From: Candidatus Hebobacterum abditum
GTDB taxonomy: Bacteria; Armatimonadota; Hebobacteria; Hebobacterales; Hebobacteraceae
Assembly: GCA_029821875.1 (NCBI GenBank)
Contig: JALGXW010000012.1
Coordinates: 1 to 64,000, forward strand
Direction of reading: 5' to 3'
Length of the DNA: 64,000 nt
This document shows positions 10,349 through 21,733 of the stretch, piece after piece. Made by a program: the position numbers and the translations under genes. The notes beneath the pieces were generated by a model. It was not told where the DNA came from. It saw only the letters and a list, made by a program, of their open reading frames with translations, and did not search any database. Within the stretch, counting starts at the first letter, position 1. Each line of letters opens with the position of its first letter.

Positions 10349-10429
10349 ATGGTCAGAGCGGAGGCCGAGTTCTGTCGAGTCTGCGGCCTTTGCTGTATGG
10401 CAGATCGGCGGGGATATGCTCTCGGTTAA
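10349..10429 (+). CDS. possible 26-aa Cys-rich leader ORF (CRVCGLCC)
   Basis: A short open frame begins at ATG 10349 and overlaps the start of the ABC ATPase gene by 14 bp. It encodes MVRAEAEFCRVCGLCCMADR plus six residues, with four Cys in a C-x2-C-x2-C-C cluster that resembles metal-chelating knuckles. The ribosome site is weak. It could be a regulatory leader peptide coupled to the transporter or a chance frame. Its position and Cys content are seen; any function is speculative. Confidence 0.3.
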   Translation: MVRAEAEFCRVCGLCCMADRRGYALG

Positions 10430-11483
10430 GGTCAACAAGCAGCTCCGCGAGTTTCCGCTCGAGATTGCGTTCGACGTCAAGCCGGCGGAAACGCTCGTCA
10501 TCATCGGCCCCAGCGGCTGCGGCAAGACGACGATACTGAACATCATAGCCGGTCTGGTCGAGCCGGATGAAGGGCGGATTGCTCTCGCGGGCGAGGCGCT
10601 GTACGATGCGGCCTCCCGCGTCAGCGTCCCGACCGAGGAGCGCAGAGTCGGCTACGTCTTCCAGGACTTCGCGCTCTTCCCCCACATGACCGTGAGTCAG
10701 AACGTGGCCTATGGCCTCCGGGCCCGGCATCACCCCAAGGGCGAGATACCGGGGAAGGTCGCCGAGGTGCTGCGGCTGCTCGGAATCACTGACCTCGGTG
10801 ATCGCCGCCCGAGTGCCTTGTCGGGCGGGGAACGCCAGCGAGTTGCGCTCGCGCGGGCGATAGCGTGTGACGCGGAGATGCTCCTGCTTGACGAGCCGTT
10901 GGGCTCGCTGGATGCCCAGACGAGAGGCCGCGTCCGCGGCGAACTGCAGCGCATGCTGCGGGTAATCGGCCGCATCGCGATCATGGTCACCCACGACTAC
11001 ATCGACGCCCTTACCTTCGGAGACAGAATCTGCGTGATGGACAGGGGGCGCGTGCTGCAGATGGGTCCCCGAGACCAGCTGCTTCACAACCCGAAGTCCC
11101 GGTTCGTCGCCGAGTTGACGGGCGTCAACTTCTTCGAGGGGACGATATCGGCCGGCTCTGAGGACGGCCTGGCGGAGATCTGGGTGGGAGACAGCTGCCT
11201 CTACGCTGCTTCTGATCAGCGGCAGATGGGCGGCACGCTGGTCGCGTTCTTCCCCAGCGAGGTGACCATCACCAGAGAGCCGCCTGCGAGTTCGGCGCGC
11301 AACGTCTTCCGAACGGAGATACGAGACATCATCCACATGGGCGACAAGGTGCGGCTGTCGCTGAACGGGGCGCTGCCGATGTGCGCTGAGATCACGGCGG
11401 ATGCGCTGGAGGACCTGGAAGTGGGCGAGGGAGACGCCGTCTACGCCTCCCTCAAGGCGACGGCGGTGAAGACCTACAGGTGA
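10416..11483 (+). CDS. molybdate/tungstate-type ABC transporter ATPase (first copy)
   Basis: This 355-residue cytoplasmic nucleotide-binding subunit energises the permease encoded two genes downstream. Walker A is GPSGCGKTT (about residues 31-39). The Q-loop is YVFQDFALFPH, the ABC signature LSGGERQR, Walker B LLLDEPLGSLD and the switch His VTHD. The C-terminal 120 residues form a TOBE/MOP-like regulatory domain as in ModC/WtpC. It opens a five-gene run with gaps of 10, 19, 32 and 7 bp. A second ATPase closes the operon, so the pump could be heterodimeric. Substrate assignment rests on the binding protein and MoaD neighbours. Confidence 0.9.
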   Translation: MLSVKVNKQLREFPLEIAFDVKPAETLVIIGPSGCGKTTILNIIAGLVEPDEGRIALAGEALYDAASRVSVPTEERRVGYVFQDFALFPHMTVSQNVAYGLRARHHPKGEIPGKVAEVLRLLGITDLGDRRPSALSGGERQRVALARAIACDAEMLLLDEPLGSLDAQTRGRVRGELQRMLRVIGRIAIMVTHDYIDALTFGDRICVMDRGRVLQMGPRDQLLHNPKSRFVAELTGVNFFEGTISAGSEDGLAEIWVGDSCLYAASDQRQMGGTLVAFFPSEVTITREPPASSARNVFRTEIRDIIHMGDKVRLSLNGALPMCAEITADALEDLEVGEGDAVYASLKATAVKTYR

Positions 11484-11493
11484 AGGGGTGTAG

Positions 11494-12339
11494 ATGAGAC
11501 GGCACCAGCAACGAGTGGAGCGGCTGATGATGCGACCCAGGAAGCTCATCATCGTCACCGTGCTCTGTGTCGCGGTGGTCGCCGGCGTGCTCGTCTTCGT
11601 TCGGGCGGCAAACGCTGGTACGAACATCAAGGTCCATGCGGGCGCGGGGATACGGCCGCCGCTTGACGAGCTGGGGCGGATGTTCGAGAAGAAGACAGGC
11701 ACTCGCGTGGAGTACAGCTACAAAGGATCGGGCTGCCTGCTGGCAGATATCTGCTTCTCGAAGCAGGGGGACCTCTACATCCCGGGGGAGCAATTCTACG
11801 TCGACCAGGCCAAGGAGCGCGGCTTCATCAAGAAGTCGGCGCTGGTGGCGCAGATGTCCACGGTGCTGATCGTGCAGAAGGGGAATCCGAAGAACATCCG
11901 TGGGCTGAGCGATCTCACCCGGAAGGGGATGCGCGTCGGGATGGGAGACCCCAATGCCGTCGCCGTGGGTCGGGCGGCGAACGAAGTGCTGGTGAAGGCG
12001 AAGCTGCTGAAGCCGGTGGACGAAAACGTCGCGGCGAGGGCGCTGAACGTGGTGGAGCTGGGGATTGGCGTCAAGCTGAAGCACCTGGACGCGGCGATCG
12101 TCTGGGACGCTACCGCGCACCTGTTTAGAGATGATGTGGTGATGATCGAGATACCCGAGGAATGGCGGGTGGAGGCCCCGATCCCTGTCGGACTGCTCAC
12201 GTTCTCCCCGGACCAGGACACGGCGGAGCAGTACCTCAACTTCCTGACCTCCGAGGAGGCGCAGAAGGTATTCCTCAAGCACGGGTACGGTCTGCCGCCG
12301 AAGCCGCAGGAACACGAGCGCGCAGAGAAGCAAGACTGA
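11494..12339 (+). CDS. molybdate/tungstate-like ABC substrate-binding protein
   Basis: This 281-residue extracytoplasmic binding protein has a signal/anchor helix at about residues 17-38 and then a ModA-type fold. It begins IKVHAGAGIRPPLDELGRMF, followed by YSYKGSG, GDLYIPG and later VGMGDPNAVAVGRAA. These match anion-binding proteins that deliver molybdate or tungstate. The normally Ser/Ala-rich segment after GSG carries two cysteines, Cys81 and Cys87, which is unusual. The start has a purine-rich AAGGGG about 6 nt upstream. It lies between the ATPase and the permease. Whether Mo or W (or sulfate) is bound cannot be told from sequence. Confidence 0.88.
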   Translation: MRRHQQRVERLMMRPRKLIIVTVLCVAVVAGVLVFVRAANAGTNIKVHAGAGIRPPLDELGRMFEKKTGTRVEYSYKGSGCLLADICFSKQGDLYIPGEQFYVDQAKERGFIKKSALVAQMSTVLIVQKGNPKNIRGLSDLTRKGMRVGMGDPNAVAVGRAANEVLVKAKLLKPVDENVAARALNVVELGIGVKLKHLDAAIVWDATAHLFRDDVVMIEIPEEWRVEAPIPVGLLTFSPDQDTAEQYLNFLTSEEAQKVFLKHGYGLPPKPQEHERAEKQD

Positions 12340-12358: not shown

Positions 12359-13417
12359 GTGGGCGGGAGGAACCTGAGCAACCGGCTTTTCGTGGCAGTT
12401 CTGGGGAGCGTGCTGATCGTCTTCTTGGCGGCGGTTGCGCTCATCTTGCTCGGGAACGTCTGGTACCTGGCGGGGGCGGAGAAGGAGGTCACCACAGGCA
12501 GGTGCACCGTCTGTGGGTACCTCTACGACGAAGAGGTGGGGGCTTTCGGGCAAGGCGTTCTGCCAGGGACGCGGTGGCTGGAGATCCTGGCGGAGTGGCA
12601 GTGTCCGTCCTGCAGCGCCGGCCGCGACAAGTTCGAGGAGATCGTTCAGAGGCGAACGGGATGGGACATCCTCCTCGGGAGCCTGCGCAATCCGGAGAAC
12701 CACTTTGCCATAAAGCTCAGCGTGCTGACGGCGGCCATCACGGCTCTGCTGGCAATGGTGGTGGCGATCCCGGCGGCCTACATCTTGTCCCGCTACCGGC
12801 TTCCAGGGGGGCAGGTCATGGACACCATTCTGGACCTGCCAATCGTCCTGCCTCCACCGGTGATGGGAATAAGCCTGCTCATCATATTCAGCACCCCCGC
12901 AGGTCAGATGGTCAACGCACTGACGCCGGAGTGGTTCGTGACCGGTGTCAACAAGGTCTTCACGTTCCTCCTGGGACACGAGATCGAGGATGGGCCCAAC
13001 TGGGTGTACACGACTCGAGGCGTGGTTGTGGCTCAGTTCTTCGTCGCCTGCTCGTTCGGCGTGCGGGCGGTGAAGGCGAGCTTCGATACACTTGGGAGGC
13101 GGCACGAGGACGTGGCCAGGACGTTGGGGTGCACGCAGCGGCAGGCGTTCGTCCGCGTGGTGCTGCCGATGGCGCGCACGGGAATCGTGGCGGGCCTCAT
13201 TATGACGTGGGCGAGGGCGATCGCCGAGTTCGGCCCTATTCTCTTCTTCTGCCAGGCGACGCAGTTCAAGACAGAGGTTATGCCGATCGCAATGTTCCTC
13301 AAGTTCTCGGTGGGACGGCTGGAGTCAGCCATTGCCCTCGTACTCATCATGGTGGCCATGTCGCTAGTGACCCTGCTGACATTCAAGCGGCTGGGCGGAC
13401 AGGGCTATCTCTGGTGA
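12359..13417 (+). CDS. ModB/WtpB-type ABC permease with inserted rubredoxin domain
   Basis: This 352-residue inner-membrane permease has TM1 at about residues 10-32. It is followed, in the loop before TM2, by a full rubredoxin module (residues 47-94). Cys49-x2-Cys52-Gly-Tyr and Cys82-Pro-x-Cys85 are present, with the canonical 30-residue spacing between Cys52 and Cys82, and PGTRW and EW-x-CP are also conserved. From residue 110 on it is a standard permease: TM2 (AIKLSVLTAAITALLA), PIVLPPPVMG, and the EAA loop EDVARTLGCTQRQAFVRVVLP that contacts the ATPases. By the usual topology the rubredoxin loop faces outside the cytoplasm. The GTG start follows GGGGCGGGG. The fusion is clear; its redox role is inference. 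Confidence 0.93.
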   Translation: MGGRNLSNRLFVAVLGSVLIVFLAAVALILLGNVWYLAGAEKEVTTGRCTVCGYLYDEEVGAFGQGVLPGTRWLEILAEWQCPSCSAGRDKFEEIVQRRTGWDILLGSLRNPENHFAIKLSVLTAAITALLAMVVAIPAAYILSRYRLPGGQVMDTILDLPIVLPPPVMGISLLIIFSTPAGQMVNALTPEWFVTGVNKVFTFLLGHEIEDGPNWVYTTRGVVVAQFFVACSFGVRAVKASFDTLGRRHEDVARTLGCTQRQAFVRVVLPMARTGIVAGLIMTWARAIAEFGPILFFCQATQFKTEVMPIAMFLKFSVGRLESAIALVLIMVAMSLVTLLTFKRLGGQGYLW

Positions 13418-13449: not shown

Positions 13450-13722
13450 ATGATCAAGTTGAGGCTGTTCTCCGCACTGCGGGAGATCGCAGGCGCCAAA
13501 GAGGTCGAAGTCGAGGGAGGCCAACTCTCGATCAAAGAAGCGTTGGAGCAGTTCGCTGGGAAGCACGGCGACAAGGCCCGCAAGACCTTGTTCGACACGC
13601 AGGGCGAGCTTCTACCAAGCGTCTTGCTGCTCGTCAACGGCGAGGCCGCCGAGAGCGGTGGGGCGACCCAGGTCTCCTCAGGAGACACGGTGCAGGTTCT
13701 ACTTCCGACGGCTGGCGGATAG
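13450..13722 (+). CDS. MoaD-like sulfur carrier (molybdopterin synthase small subunit)
   Basis: This 90-residue beta-grasp protein starts IKLRLFSALREIAGAKEVEVEG and ends in the Gly-Gly tail (LPTAGG) that is adenylated and thiocarboxylated in MoaD/ThiS proteins. In the molybdenum or tungsten cofactor pathway it would pass sulfur to the pterin precursor. GGAGAGG lies 9 nt before the ATG. It sits between the permease and the second ATPase of a metal-oxyanion transporter, tying uptake to cofactor synthesis. MoaE and MoeB partners are not in this window. A tungsten-specific MoaD variant is also possible. Confidence 0.88.
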   Translation: MIKLRLFSALREIAGAKEVEVEGGQLSIKEALEQFAGKHGDKARKTLFDTQGELLPSVLLLVNGEAAESGGATQVSSGDTVQVLLPTAGG

Positions 13723-13729
13723 GGAGGAC

Positions 13730-14791
13730 ATGGCGCAACCGGTCGTCCAAGTTCGCGACGTCTCGCTTCGGCTCGGCGATTTCGCCGTGCACGACGCGGA
13801 CATGGACATCCAAGAGCGCGAGTACTTCGTCCTGCTGGGCCCGACGGGGGCCGGCAAGACGGTGTTGCTCGAGTGCATTGCAGGGCTTCACCATCCGGAA
13901 ACGGGAGACATCTACGTCGAAGGCGAGCGTGTGAATGACACCGCACCCGAGGCCCGGGGACTGGGGTATCTGCCTCAGGACTACGCGCTCTTCCCACACC
14001 TGACGGTGGCGCAGAACATCGCATTCGGGATGCGCATCCGCAGGAAGTCGAGGGCCGAGATAGAGCGCAAGGTCGCGCAGCTCGCCGACTTGCTGGGGAT
14101 AACGCACCTGCTGCATCGCAGCCCCGTGAGGCTCAGCGGCGGGGAGAAGCAGAGGTCGGCCCTTGCGCGCGCCCTGGCGATTGAGCCGAGGGTGCTGCTG
14201 CTCGACGAGCCGCTCAGTGCCCTCGACGAGCAAACGCGGGAGGGGCTGTGTGTCGAGCTGCGGCGCGTGCACCAGGAGCTAGGGACCACCACCCTGCACG
14301 TGTCCCACAACTTCGAAGAGACGATGTCGGTGGCCGATAAGATAGGGATCATCCACGAAGGGCGCATCCGCCAGATCGGTACGCCGGAGGAGGTGTTCCG
14401 GCGTCCGAACTCCGAGTTCGTCGCACGATTCGTAAGAAGTGAGAACGTCTTCCGCGGCACCGGCAAGGCCGAGGGTGATCGGCTCGTGGTGCGCTCTGGG
14501 AGCGTCGAGTTCGAGGCCGAGTCCGGGCCGGAGGGCGACGTGTTCCTGACAGTGCGCCCCGAAGAGGTCATGCTGGCGGCCGCTCCCGGCCCTGAGCGCG
14601 CGAACGAACTTGTCGGCCGCATCGCGCGCGTGGTGGACAAGGGGGCCTTCATGCGCGTGGATGTGGAGGCGAGCTTGACGCTCGTCGCGCTCGTCGGCCG
14701 GCGATCCTTCCAGCGGAGCGGCCTAGGAGTCGGCGACGAGGCCGCCGTGTCGTTCGCCCCGGCCTCGGCGCACGTGTTCCCAGCACAGTGA
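13730..14791 (+). CDS. molybdate/tungstate-type ABC transporter ATPase (second copy)
   Basis: This 353-residue ATPase shows Walker A GPTGAGKT (about residues 36-43), Q-loop YLPQDYALFPH, signature LSGGEKQR, Walker B LLLDEPLSALDE and switch His VSHN. It ends in a C-terminal TOBE-like domain of about 100 residues. It is distinct from the first ATPase of the operon, so it is not a recent copy. The ATG follows GGAGG and the preceding moaD stop by 7 bp; an upstream in-frame start inside moaD is rejected. It is the last gene of the operon and ends 67 bp from a convergent gene. It may pair with the first ATPase or serve another permease. Confidence 0.9.
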   Translation: MAQPVVQVRDVSLRLGDFAVHDADMDIQEREYFVLLGPTGAGKTVLLECIAGLHHPETGDIYVEGERVNDTAPEARGLGYLPQDYALFPHLTVAQNIAFGMRIRRKSRAEIERKVAQLADLLGITHLLHRSPVRLSGGEKQRSALARALAIEPRVLLLDEPLSALDEQTREGLCVELRRVHQELGTTTLHVSHNFEETMSVADKIGIIHEGRIRQIGTPEEVFRRPNSEFVARFVRSENVFRGTGKAEGDRLVVRSGSVEFEAESGPEGDVFLTVRPEEVMLAAAPGPERANELVGRIARVVDKGAFMRVDVEASLTLVALVGRRSFQRSGLGVGDEAAVSFAPASAHVFPAQ

Positions 14792-16742: not shown

Positions 16743-19385
16743 TTACTTCAGCGCGTCAAGCGCCTCCGTCAGAATGCTGACAGCCGCCCTTTCGCGTTCG
16801 AGCGCTCGTTGGACGGCGCTCGAGCCGGCCAGTCGCCGCGCCTTCGTCCGCCCCGCATTGGAGGGTGCATCGTGCCCCAACTCGTTGTAGAACTCCCGCC
16901 ACGCCGCGTAGGCGGCGCGGTATTCGCGCGCCGCACGGGCGATCTCCTCAGATACTCCCGCCGGGAAGAGGTCGGCGTGAGCGACACGCTCCAGGTACAC
17001 GGCCGTCGAGTTGCGGAGGGTCCACTGCGGGTTGATATCGTGACACGCGCTCCAGTCCTCGTAGGCAGCGGTGTCGGCGCAGTCGGCTGCGTATGCTTCC
17101 ATCGCTTCGAGGCCGAACTTCGCCTTCGGGAACTCGCGCCGCGCGGCCTCGGGAGGTTCGGTGCTCCACGCGGCGAGATCGCGCATGACGCGGACCGCCG
17201 TCTCACGAGGAGGGAGAGGATCGGCGCGGCGCGAAAAGCGGCCGAGTCTATGCGGCCAGTCACTCATCTCTGCCACGAACTTCGGCCACGGCCACCACTC
17301 GGCGATGGTGTCGGGTCCGTCGGCCATGACGAGGACCGTGCGGTCCCCCCTCTCCGGCGCCTCCTGGTACCCACCGATGAGGAGGTTCTCCCAGTACCAG
17401 CCCTTGAGGGGACGGCCCGAGTCGATGCTCTCCTTGATGATCGACCACGCGGCATCCACGTCCTCGAAAGTCACCCACTCGTAGCCGAACCCAGTGGCCT
17501 CCGCGATCCGCCGATCCATGTCGATGTGGAGGTTGGCGTATTTGGGCATGAACTCGCCGGGCTCGTAGGCGAACAACGCCGACGCGCCGGAGACGGCGGA
17601 CACCGTGTCGAAGTCGACATCAGTCCAACCGGCGGCCCGCATTTCGATGAGGTGCATGACGAGGTAGACGCAGGGCTGGGGATAGACGGTATCGGCGAAG
17701 GCGATCTGGTGACTGGCGAGGTCATCAGTGAAGCTCCGGAAATCGTTGGCCACGTTCGCCAACAGCACGGAGCGGCCCATCTCGTCGTCGTCGACGCCCG
17801 TCTCCGCCTTCTCGATCACGCAGATCCGACGGTTGACGCCATCGACTGCCCACAGATTCTCGCCATCGAAGGCGAGGCCGGCGGTTCCGCCCTGGAAGAC
17901 CCGGTCGCCCCAGTCCAGCAGCCTGCCGTCGTAGCTGGTCTTGATGACAGTGTGCGCCCAGAAGTCGGCATGCCAGACGCCATCGGGCGTCGGGGTGAAG
18001 CAGTTCGGCCCCGGCCCGGCGAGGATCTTCAATTGCCGCTCATCCGGGCTTGCCGGCTTCAGTTCTCTCCCCTCCGGGCTTGCCGGGTCGATGACGATGA
18101 TGCCCGGCGAGAACTCATCGACGACCCATATCTTGCCATTGACCTGATTTGCCGCGCCGACCCAGGTCCAGTCGGTTTCGTCGATCGTGATGTCCTGCTT
18201 GATCTCTCCGGTAGCCGCGTCAACCTTGAGCAGCTTCTTCGGATCGCTCTGAGTGACGGCGAGGCAGTCGTCCCACCAGCCGATGGCGACGACGTTGTCG
18301 ACGGGAAGCTCGAGCGTCTTCAGCACTTCGCCGCCGCTGGGGGAGACGGCAATGGCCGAGTTGCTCTCGCGATCATAGACCCAGAGGCGCTCGCCGTCCC
18401 AGGCCATCGTCCAGAGATCAGCGCCGGGCGCGGGGATGGAGCGCACAATCTTCCAGTCCCGGGGCACCGGCGGGAGATCGCGCAGCGTGTCGAAGTAGCC
18501 ATGGGTCTTGAGGGCCCTGAAGACGAACAAGCTGTTGTCGCGCCAGCTGCCGTCCGACCGCTGTCCGCGGAGAAGCATGGGTATCTGCTTTTGCACGAGG
18601 GCGCGGGCCTCGGGTAGATCGATCTGCCCCGACGCGTCGAGAAAGCCGTAGGGGTCGTTGTAGGCGGAGCAGCCGGCGGCATTCATCGAATCGGCCACTC
18701 GACGCATGCCCTCAGCGATGGTAGACGCGGTGTCGACGATGTCGCGTCCGGCCCAGAGCGCGCTCCAGAAGACCTCTGGAGTCCACGGGCATCCTTCCCA
18801 CGGGCCGTTCCACTCCTCGGGGTGCTCCACGTACCACTTGAGCGAGAACATAACTTCGGGAATGTCGCTGCGGCCGAGCAGGCATAATGCGTGGAGGGCG
18901 TAGATGGAGAGAGCGCCATCCTTCTCCACCCACTCGTTTGCATTCTGCCCGGCCCGCTTCTGTCGCAGAAGCGCTTCTACCCCACGCTCGATCTCCGGGG
19001 AATCCGCGGGGAAGCCCAGCTGGAGAAGCCGCAGGATGCGTTCGCCGGTCTCCTTGGTGGTATCTCCGAAGCTCCCGTCCTCGCGCTGCTCGGCCAGAAT
19101 CTCGTCGACCTGTGCCTGGATGATGGCGGCGTCGCCGTCTTTGGGCTGCTCGAAAACGAACGTCCGCACGAGCGCGCCTTGCAGGGAGTCGTCGTTCTCG
19201 ACGAAGGTCATGGGGTCAATGCGGAAGCCACAGGTGAGACCTGTCTTGTGGGTTGGACTCGGCTGGGGAAGAGAGGATGACAAGAGAGCGTCTCCTTCCG
19301 ACGGACTGCTCCCGACAACGACACGAGAACAGGGTCCGGCTGTCAGCAGGACGGCTACAAGCGGGCACAGGAGCCTGGGCGACAT
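16743..19385 (-). CDS. large secreted multidomain protein (cyclase-like repeats plus propeller-like region)
   Basis: This 880-residue exported protein has an N-terminal signal peptide. Three regions are visible. At about 95-300 there are helical repeats like those of squalene-cyclase/prenyltransferase toroids (REDGSFGDTTKETGERILRLL, QRSDGSWRDNSLFVFRAL). At about 315-560 there are beta-propeller-like repeats (LWTMAWDGERLWVYDRES, GLAFDGENLWAVDG). At about 580-880 a region with GGYQEAPERGDRTVLVMADG resembles C39/BtrH-like folds but has no clear catalytic triad. GGAGGGG precedes the ATG by 4 nt. A 30-bp imperfect tandem repeat lies in the propeller part. The function is unknown. A long open frame on the opposite strand here is a shadow. 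Confidence 0.8.
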   Translation of the reverse strand: MSPRLLCPLVAVLLTAGPCSRVVVGSSPSEGDALLSSSLPQPSPTHKTGLTCGFRIDPMTFVENDDSLQGALVRTFVFEQPKDGDAAIIQAQVDEILAEQREDGSFGDTTKETGERILRLLQLGFPADSPEIERGVEALLRQKRAGQNANEWVEKDGALSIYALHALCLLGRSDIPEVMFSLKWYVEHPEEWNGPWEGCPWTPEVFWSALWAGRDIVDTASTIAEGMRRVADSMNAAGCSAYNDPYGFLDASGQIDLPEARALVQKQIPMLLRGQRSDGSWRDNSLFVFRALKTHGYFDTLRDLPPVPRDWKIVRSIPAPGADLWTMAWDGERLWVYDRESNSAIAVSPSGGEVLKTLELPVDNVVAIGWWDDCLAVTQSDPKKLLKVDAATGEIKQDITIDETDWTWVGAANQVNGKIWVVDEFSPGIIVIDPASPEGRELKPASPDERQLKILAGPGPNCFTPTPDGVWHADFWAHTVIKTSYDGRLLDWGDRVFQGGTAGLAFDGENLWAVDGVNRRICVIEKAETGVDDDEMGRSVLLANVANDFRSFTDDLASHQIAFADTVYPQPCVYLVMHLIEMRAAGWTDVDFDTVSAVSGASALFAYEPGEFMPKYANLHIDMDRRIAEATGFGYEWVTFEDVDAAWSIIKESIDSGRPLKGWYWENLLIGGYQEAPERGDRTVLVMADGPDTIAEWWPWPKFVAEMSDWPHRLGRFSRRADPLPPRETAVRVMRDLAAWSTEPPEAARREFPKAKFGLEAMEAYAADCADTAAYEDWSACHDINPQWTLRNSTAVYLERVAHADLFPAGVSEEIARAAREYRAAYAAWREFYNELGHDAPSNAGRTKARRLAGSSAVQRALERERAAVSILTEALDALK
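18027..18086 (-). repeat. imperfect 30-bp tandem repeat within the 880-aa gene
   Basis: Two 30-bp units (18027-18056 and 18057-18086) share CTTC at one end and TCCGGGCTTGCCGG at the other, with 6 mismatches between. They encode the repeated peptide PASPxxRxLK. Confidence 0.85.
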
Positions 19386-20452: not shown

Positions 20453-21733
20453 CTATGGAGGCGCCCCTCCGCCCATGCCTCCCTGTACCGCCCCGGGAAT
20501 CGCCGGCGGAGGAGGGGGAGGCGGTCCCGCGTCCGCTGGATGTGTCGGTTGCCGGCCGGCCCACGGCTTCGTAACGAGCCGAGAGCCCACGACGGTGTGT
20601 GCGCTGACCCACCAGGACTCGTAGGCCGTGCGCCACTCGAGCAGCGAGCTCTGCAGCTCAGGCGGCATGGCGACGAGGAAGGTGCGCGACGTCGGCGGCT
20701 TCCCAGGGATAGGCGGATAGGTTGCGTCAATGCTTATGAAGACTACGCGCGCCGGCGGGGGGCACGGCTCTACCCCAGGCAGTTTCATGCCAAGTGCATT
20801 GCCAGTCAGCCCGGGACTCTGGGTGCCGCTTCCGGCGTAGTCGAACACTACCGTGGTGATATCGAAGTGTCGCGCGCGTGCCTCGGGAGTCCTCCGGTAA
20901 TCCAGCGGCTGCTGCCAGATGCGGTTCGTGTACAGACGCTTGACATCTACTGCCGCCGTGACGGCCTCCCGGTGGGCCGGAGTGAGATCATCGAACGCGA
21001 GCAGGAGCCTGCCCTGCCGGCGGAGCTGTCGCAGTTGGCCAGGAGTGAGCTCGGCATAGAGGCGGTAGATCGAACGTCTCGGCAGCCAGTAGGACCGCAG
21101 GAACGTCACCTCGTTTCTGGCCGTGCGCGTGGCTGAGTAACCTTGTGCCGCAGCCCTCATCTCGTGCTCCCGGATCCGGTCCTGGCTGAGCTGGGGCGCC
21201 GGCGGGCGCGGCCCCCCGGACCAGGCCGTCATCGTCCAGTGGGGGAACAGCGGCAGGCCATCTCGCACCCACTCCACACGCTCGGGTGCGCACGCCACGG
21301 TGAGCTTCTTCCAGGTCTTCTTCTCCGGGCTCTGGAGGCAGAACTCGACAACGTTCTCCTCGCATTCCCAGAGCAGCGTGGACCGGCGAGTCTTATCTTC
21401 ATCCAGGTATTCGGCCGGCGGATCACACCCCCAGCGGGGGACGTTGAACCAGGTGGCGAGCTTGGCGGCGGCCTCATCGTCCAGGTCCTCACCGGAGAAG
21501 TGGACTTTCTCGCCGGAATGCAGCCTTTGGAGATCGGGTGCCGGGAGGGCGGCATAGAGGGCGTAGAGGGGGCCGCACGCCTCGTGCTCCTCCGGCAGGT
21601 AGAGTTCCCAGACGGCTTCCGGCAGGCGAGGGAGTGGCTCTGCGGCTTGTGCTGATGTAATCGCGAGCGGCGTCGCGACGAGGGCCAGCACGGCGATGCA
21701 CGCAGGCGAAACGACAGCACATAGGCGCGCCAT
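20453..21733 (-). CDS. secreted protein of unknown function, Pro/Gly-rich tail
   Basis: This 426-residue protein has a clear signal peptide ending AQAAE. The body has no motif I recognise; it contains four scattered Cys in the first third (about residues 50-155) and basic, aromatic-rich segments. The C-terminus is low-complexity (PPPPPPPAIPGAVQGGMGGG). AAGGGGGA precedes the ATG by 5 nt. It is convergent with the PHP gene and lies downstream of another secreted protein gene on the same strand. The start and reading frame are well supported; the function is unknown. Confidence 0.7.
   Translation of the reverse strand: MARLCAVVSPACIAVLALVATPLAITSAQAAEPLPRLPEAVWELYLPEEHEACGPLYALYAALPAPDLQRLHSGEKVHFSGEDLDDEAAAKLATWFNVPRWGCDPPAEYLDEDKTRRSTLLWECEENVVEFCLQSPEKKTWKKLTVACAPERVEWVRDGLPLFPHWTMTAWSGGPRPPAPQLSQDRIREHEMRAAAQGYSATRTARNEVTFLRSYWLPRRSIYRLYAELTPGQLRQLRRQGRLLLAFDDLTPAHREAVTAAVDVKRLYTNRIWQQPLDYRRTPEARARHFDITTVVFDYAGSGTQSPGLTGNALGMKLPGVEPCPPPARVVFISIDATYPPIPGKPPTSRTFLVAMPPELQSSLLEWRTAYESWWVSAHTVVGSRLVTKPWAGRQPTHPADAGPPPPPPPAIPGAVQGGMGGGAPP

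Follow-up and report, generated by a model that had tools for sequence, protein, structure and literature searches.

In the genome of Candidatus Hebobacterum abditum, the permease of an ABC importer resembling molybdate and tungstate transporters carries a complete rubredoxin domain between its first and second transmembrane helices (TM1 and TM2), and the identical fusion point is found in three separately assembled Armatimonadota genomes belonging to two genera of the class Ca. Hebobacteria. The gene lies in a stretch of 64,000 nucleotides, referred to here as the window; G000 denotes the genome from which the window comes, while the copies in G001 and G003 sit on separate contigs. It is tentatively suggested that the domain, a periplasmic rubredoxin insertion acquired a single time, serves as an Fe(Cys)4 module that responds to redox state and influences docking or gating. 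As proposed, a Mo/W-type importer permease would have gained an intact rubredoxin once, in the periplasmic TM1-TM2 loop, where the first and last strands of the domain, antiparallel to each other, would fix it in place and leave hardly any flexible linker. The rubredoxin would carry Fe(Cys)4 in a reducing periplasm and would sit on the face where the binding protein docks; the oxidation state of the metal center would alter docking or gate opening, and uptake of Mo or W oxyanions would thereby follow ambient redox conditions.

The fused permease, its domain and its operon

The original prediction of an oxyanion-type ABC permease with a rubredoxin between TM1 and TM2 is borne out by hmmscan. 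Within the single frame 12359-13417, PF00301 matches residues 48-92 (E 2e-15, 57 bits; cut-off 23) and PF00528 matches residues 137-341 (49.6 bits; cut-off 26.4). The four cysteines (49, 52, 82, 85) and the PGTRW and PIVLPPPVMG motifs lie where they had been placed; residues 47-94 had been given for the module, but the insert as a whole extends over about residues 42-98 (Table 1). In a search of PDB sequences, the insert taken by itself matches free rubredoxins (7e-16), and the permease core matches the Mo/W and sulfate/molybdate permeases 2onk and 3d31. The hydropathy pattern fits a six-helix arrangement, and the EAA loop is kept across 15 aligned homologues. The description of the permease as ModB/WtpB-type stands as a likeness and not as a strict class, with scores under the equivalog cut-offs of ModB (TIGR02141, 131.3 bits against 182.6) and WtpB (NF040839, 128.1 against 340) and also under that of the best full-length model, TIGR01581 (Mo_ABC_porter / NifC-like, 190 against 210.3); the term thus denotes resemblance.

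Table 1. Features of the fused permease gene and its operon (window positions; residues are those of the permease).
Feature	Position	Strand	Evidence or remarks
ATPase 1	10416..11483	+	ABC_tran + TOBE; best NCBIfam WtpC, ModC, under cut-off
ModA-like substrate-binding protein	11494..12339	+	TIGR01256 modA, 91.3 bits vs cut-off 62.5; PF13531
Permease with inserted rubredoxin domain	12359..13417	+	GTG start, 352 aa, one open frame
TM1, N-in	12392..12448 (residues 12-30)	+	Hydropathy peak 3.04, positive N-terminus
Inserted stretch	12482..12652 (residues 42-98)	+	Fused G000/G001/G003 aligned vs G002/G006/G007 (6-residue linker)
Rubredoxin domain, Cys49/52/82/85	12500..12634 (residues 48-92)	+	PF00301, 57-61 bits across copies
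TM2	12722..12778 (residues 122-140)	+	Hydropathy
PIVLPPPVMG motif in TM3	12839..12868	+	Reading of translation and homologue alignment
TM3-TM4 extracytoplasmic loop	12905..13018	+	Homologue alignment
EAA-type cytoplasmic coupling loop	13085..13153 (residues 243-265)	+	Homologue alignment
MoaD/ThiS-like small protein, GG end	13450..13722	+	TIGR01687, 58.4 bits vs cut-off 49.5; PF02597
ATPase 2	13730..14791	+	ABC_tran + TOBE_2; best NCBIfam WtpC, 389.9 bits, cut-off 440; likely start taken as ATG at 13730

The placement of the TM1-TM2 loop outside the cytoplasm, put forward in the original prediction, agrees with a topology check in which the hydropathy profile, the positively charged N-terminus and the EAA loop on the cytoplasmic side concur on an N-in arrangement with the rubredoxin in the periplasm; homology to 2onk and 3d31 is consistent with this. 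An Omp85 protein is encoded in G000, which implies an outer membrane and a periplasm, and neither DsbB nor VKOR was detected in this 95% complete MAG, so exported thiols may stay reduced and capable of binding metal. Together, the presence of Omp85 and the failure to detect DsbB or VKOR suggest a periplasm without the usual disulfide-forming system. The TM3-TM4 periplasmic loop, on the same side of the permease as the rubredoxin, is elaborated too: it is about 25-40 residues longer in Hebobacteraceae than in homologues from other Armatimonadota.

The rubredoxin domain itself is well preserved. A set of hallmark residues, picked on the basis of what is generally known of rubredoxins (four Cys, GY, Y, D, G, PGT, W, W, P, F), is present and invariant in all three fused copies (16/16), while 19 of the 47 domain positions vary (hypergeometric P = 2e-5); the rubredoxin core is about 60% identical between genera. 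The insert is constrained, but more loosely than the permease core (dN/dS 0.20-0.32 against 0.05-0.15), at a dS of about 0.75 across genera. Structure prediction, which had been proposed as a check, recovered the rubredoxin fold with modest confidence: an AlphaFold model of a 149-residue segment from three sequences (mean pLDDT 63) has strands at residues 41-49, 55-57 and 92-100, and its rubredoxin part (pLDDT about 55-75) matches rubredoxin structures with TM-score ~0.8 at 1.8-2.0 Å. An AlphaFold model of the whole protein had a mean pLDDT of 41.7, too low for it to be of use. In the segment model the first and last antiparallel strands continue without a break into TM1 and into the helix ahead of TM2, which probably holds the domain rigidly.

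Three metal-proximal residues, T50, S84 and A87, are invariant in the fused copies; at two of them, A87 and S84, the free rubredoxin encoded in the same genome has Val and Leu instead. Their equivalents in C. pasteurianum rubredoxin, positions 44 and 41, affect potential and solvent access (PMC10130062), and the fused rubredoxin is accordingly predicted to have a potential unlike that of the free protein. Most members of the Hebobacteraceae have one free rubredoxin; in G003 the fused copy is the sole rubredoxin found. The sequence CxxCGY is near-universal in rubredoxins, and the fused copies keep its Gly, while free rubredoxins of the family have CxxCTY or CxxCVY (G000, G001, G006 and G002), those of G000, G001 and G002 being of the CxxCTY type.

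The five-gene order ATPase 1, ModA-like binding protein, permease, MoaD-like protein, ATPase 2 is kept in G003, G002, G007 and G008, and the parts of the operon held on the contigs of G001, G004 and G006 follow the same order; orthologues of ATPase 1 are found in G003, G002, G007, G006 and G008. The ModA-like protein has an N-terminal signal peptide or anchor (ANA-G). Aldehyde ferredoxin oxidoreductase (AOR), a tungsten-type enzyme family, is encoded in 11 of the 14 genomes of the class, including all eight Hebobacteraceae and the order relative G008. Because the operon has MoaD and a permease close to ModB/WtpB and the genomes have AOR, Mo/W uptake is the likely job of the operon with or without rubredoxin.

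Some further features of the locus may be recorded. One permease and a MoaD-like gene are flanked by two different, apparently intact ATPases (about 37% identical), both kept in every complete orthologous operon of Hebobacteraceae and in G008, which suggests a mixed-ATPase importer or alternative ATPases. The ModA-like protein has two cysteines in a presumed ligand-site motif, GSGCLLADIC, which is family-wide with or without the insert, the second cysteine being missing in G008. These cysteines were considered as partners of the rubredoxin, a role left unsupported by their occurrence in rubredoxin-less orthologues. The 64-kb window has no Rfam match, hence no known Moco/Tuco riboswitch. Two large frames on the reverse strand, 16743-19385 and 20453-21733, have no Pfam match at 1e-5; the former continues at the same place in G001.

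Distribution and history of the fusion

A search for rubredoxin-permease fusions was run on 291 Armatimonadota genomes and returned three copies and no further one: besides the source gene, that of G001, of the same genus (96% identity), and that of G003, of another genus (82%). The class was described from anoxic Guaymas and Bohai sediments (PMC10290634). The permease occurs in 8 of its 14 genomes, with the rubredoxin in three and without it in four (G002, G006, G007 and G008); the contig of the eighth, G004, ends before the insertion region, so its state is not readable there. A contig scan beyond the phylum with narrow peptide patterns matched solely the same lineage, viral contigs held no fused copy, and no phage or plasmid record had a rubredoxin recognizably joined to a permease; a match over 80% or more of the query occurred at one place there, a ModB 25% identical to it. 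Among the genomes searched the fusion is confined to one lineage, the searches outside Armatimonadota being weak.

The insertion is clean. The fused copies read NVWYLAGA-[EKEVTTG..rubredoxin..EEIVQRR]-TGWDI around the site, and the sister genera NVWYLAQA-EATEGQ-SGWDI, NVVYLAGA-EGPEGE-SGWEL and NVWYLAEA-KDSLGK-SGWSI; about 57 residues thus replace a 6-residue linker, and since orthologous operons of sister genera carry that linker, the insertion is lineage-specific. All three fused genomes appear to be MAGs, in which an assembly or binning artefact might join a rubredoxin gene to a permease gene, but such an origin is hardly credible given three assemblies from two genera, a frame open throughout, an identical insertion point and a divergence of 4-18% between copies. 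The original prediction had named an assembly join or a decayed module as outcomes that would overturn it. Homologues lacking the cysteines lack the whole module, and those bearing the module keep all four; join and decay alike are ruled out by three independent copies with conserved hallmarks.

The fused permease differs in its phylogeny from genes around it. RpoB groups G003 with G002 and not with the source genus (96/87), and AOR does so more weakly (90/73); MoaD and ATPase 2 of the fusion-bearing G003 contig also place G003 with G002, the alternative being rejected (AU p = 0.009-0.016). The permease, in contrast, groups G003 with the source genus (99.7/99), and a species-like tree is rejected for it (AU p = 0.0002-0.0003, with p = 0.01 in the case of the mildest alternative); one alternative with G006, represented by just 119 residues of the permease, survives the test (p = 0.054). 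A simple vertical history of the cassette of binding protein and permease is rejected by these topology tests, and because its history differs from those of MoaD, ATPase 2, RpoB and AOR, the cassette has probably passed from one lineage to another while the order of the operon stayed conserved. Given the likeness between the cassettes of G002 and G007, the exchange may have occurred at G002; the direction may have been either that of a rubredoxin version into G003 or of a rubredoxin-less version into G002.

Possible roles of the rubredoxin

The presence of the domain in three genomes only, its faster evolution than the permease and the orthologues without it in sister genera could indicate a free rubredoxin gene spliced in laterally or neutrally and tolerated without function. 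This is quite improbable, since a tolerated passenger should have lost cysteines or core residues, while all 16 hallmarks were kept despite the dS between genera, and the cassette carrying the domain was apparently exchanged between lineages and retained.

Conservation of the hallmarks proves solely that the fold and metal site are kept, and a structural Fe or Zn site needs the same residues. It is quite plausible, then, that the metal does no more than steady a small, rigid domain whose role is to reshape the face where the binding protein docks or to cover the mouth of the translocation path. The rigid join through the domain's own terminal β strands would suit such a structural module, as would the conservation of fold residues while much of the surface varies, and the enlarged TM3-TM4 loop points to a trend of periplasmic elaboration in the family. 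Rubredoxin between TM helices is also tolerated in engineered receptors of solved structure (4mbs, 5vbl and others). Added periplasmic domains play such roles in other importers, for example MalF P2. A purely structural role, however, does not need a full canonical rubredoxin, and the metal-proximal positions are conserved in the fused set.

A redox-responsive module is slightly favored over this structural one. Points in its favor are the invariance of the hallmarks, the dN/dS of the insert, the fold model, the outside topology, the periplasm with no DsbB or VKOR detected, the operon with ModA-like and MoaD genes, AOR and the metal-proximal residues; against it, sister genera with the same operon and AOR lack the domain, and evolution has been faster in the insert than in the permease core. 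Next to the fused permease gene, no reductase or oxidase that could be its partner was found. The bolder form of this proposal, in which the Fe(Cys)4 state gates Mo/W uptake and the protein would be the first ABC importer in nature to have a redox switch built in on its periplasmic side, is somewhat unlikely. The metal-proximal conservation and the anaerobic sediment habitat (PMC10290634) would also suit a tethered periplasmic electron carrier, either with the permease as a mere anchor or acting on the oxyanion itself (its thiolation or reduction state, in sulfidic sediment). That role is very unlikely, with no neighboring redox partner, an operon otherwise purely of transport and MoaD genes and no redox step needed in known Mo/W uptake. 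Redox-coupled uptake, with electron transfer as part of transport, also belonged to the original prediction and is the least probable element of it, since known relatives take up oxyanions of Mo(VI) and W(VI) and do not reduce them.

Regulation of ABC importers usually acts from the cytoplasm, as in trans-inhibition through TOBE domains. If the redox-responsive reading is true, an extracytoplasmic redox-active metal domain in a permease would offer a new, external control of metal uptake and would be a rare instance in nature of a rubredoxin at work beyond the cytoplasm; as a redox switch, it would let Mo or W be imported only in a given redox window. The sister genera offer a ready control, the operon being the same in versions that have the domain and versions that lack it, and make the functional question directly testable by domain swap.

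Comparison with known systems

The original prediction knew of no described system of this kind, and limited searches of the open-access literature likewise gave no natural precedent: nothing relevant was found there on rubredoxin in ABC permeases or in Mo/W transport, and neither that literature nor solved structures held a natural transporter with an inserted rubredoxin, the inserts in solved structures being solely engineered receptor chimeras and an AtSWEET13 fusion. ModB/WtpB permeases (2onk_C, Archaeoglobus ModB; 3d31_C) share with the fused permease the six-helix PF00528 core, the EAA loop and the oxyanion-type motif, and their systems likewise have an operon with a ModA-like binding protein and ModC/WtpC-like ATPases; the differences here are the insert of about 57 residues between TM1 and TM2, scores under the curated cut-offs, two distinct ATPases and the MoaD-like gene. 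Compared with free rubredoxins (PF00301), the fused domain has the same hallmarks, spacing and fold but is embedded between TM helices, is predicted to be extracytoplasmic, and lacks the GDP loop and the proline of LPDDW; unlike the free rubredoxin of the same genome, it has Ala and Ser as two of its metal-proximal residues. The membrane-anchored RubA of oxygenic phototrophs and fusions of AlkB with rubredoxin (8f6t) also place a rubredoxin on a membrane protein, as terminal fusions in other protein families and not as insertions in a transporter. Engineered receptor-rubredoxin chimeras (4mbs, 5vbl, 6bd4) do have a rubredoxin spliced between two TM helices, although these are artificial crystallization aids in receptor loops, without a biological role. 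The P2 loop of MalF is likewise an extra periplasmic domain in an importer permease, with a different fold, no metal and another location.
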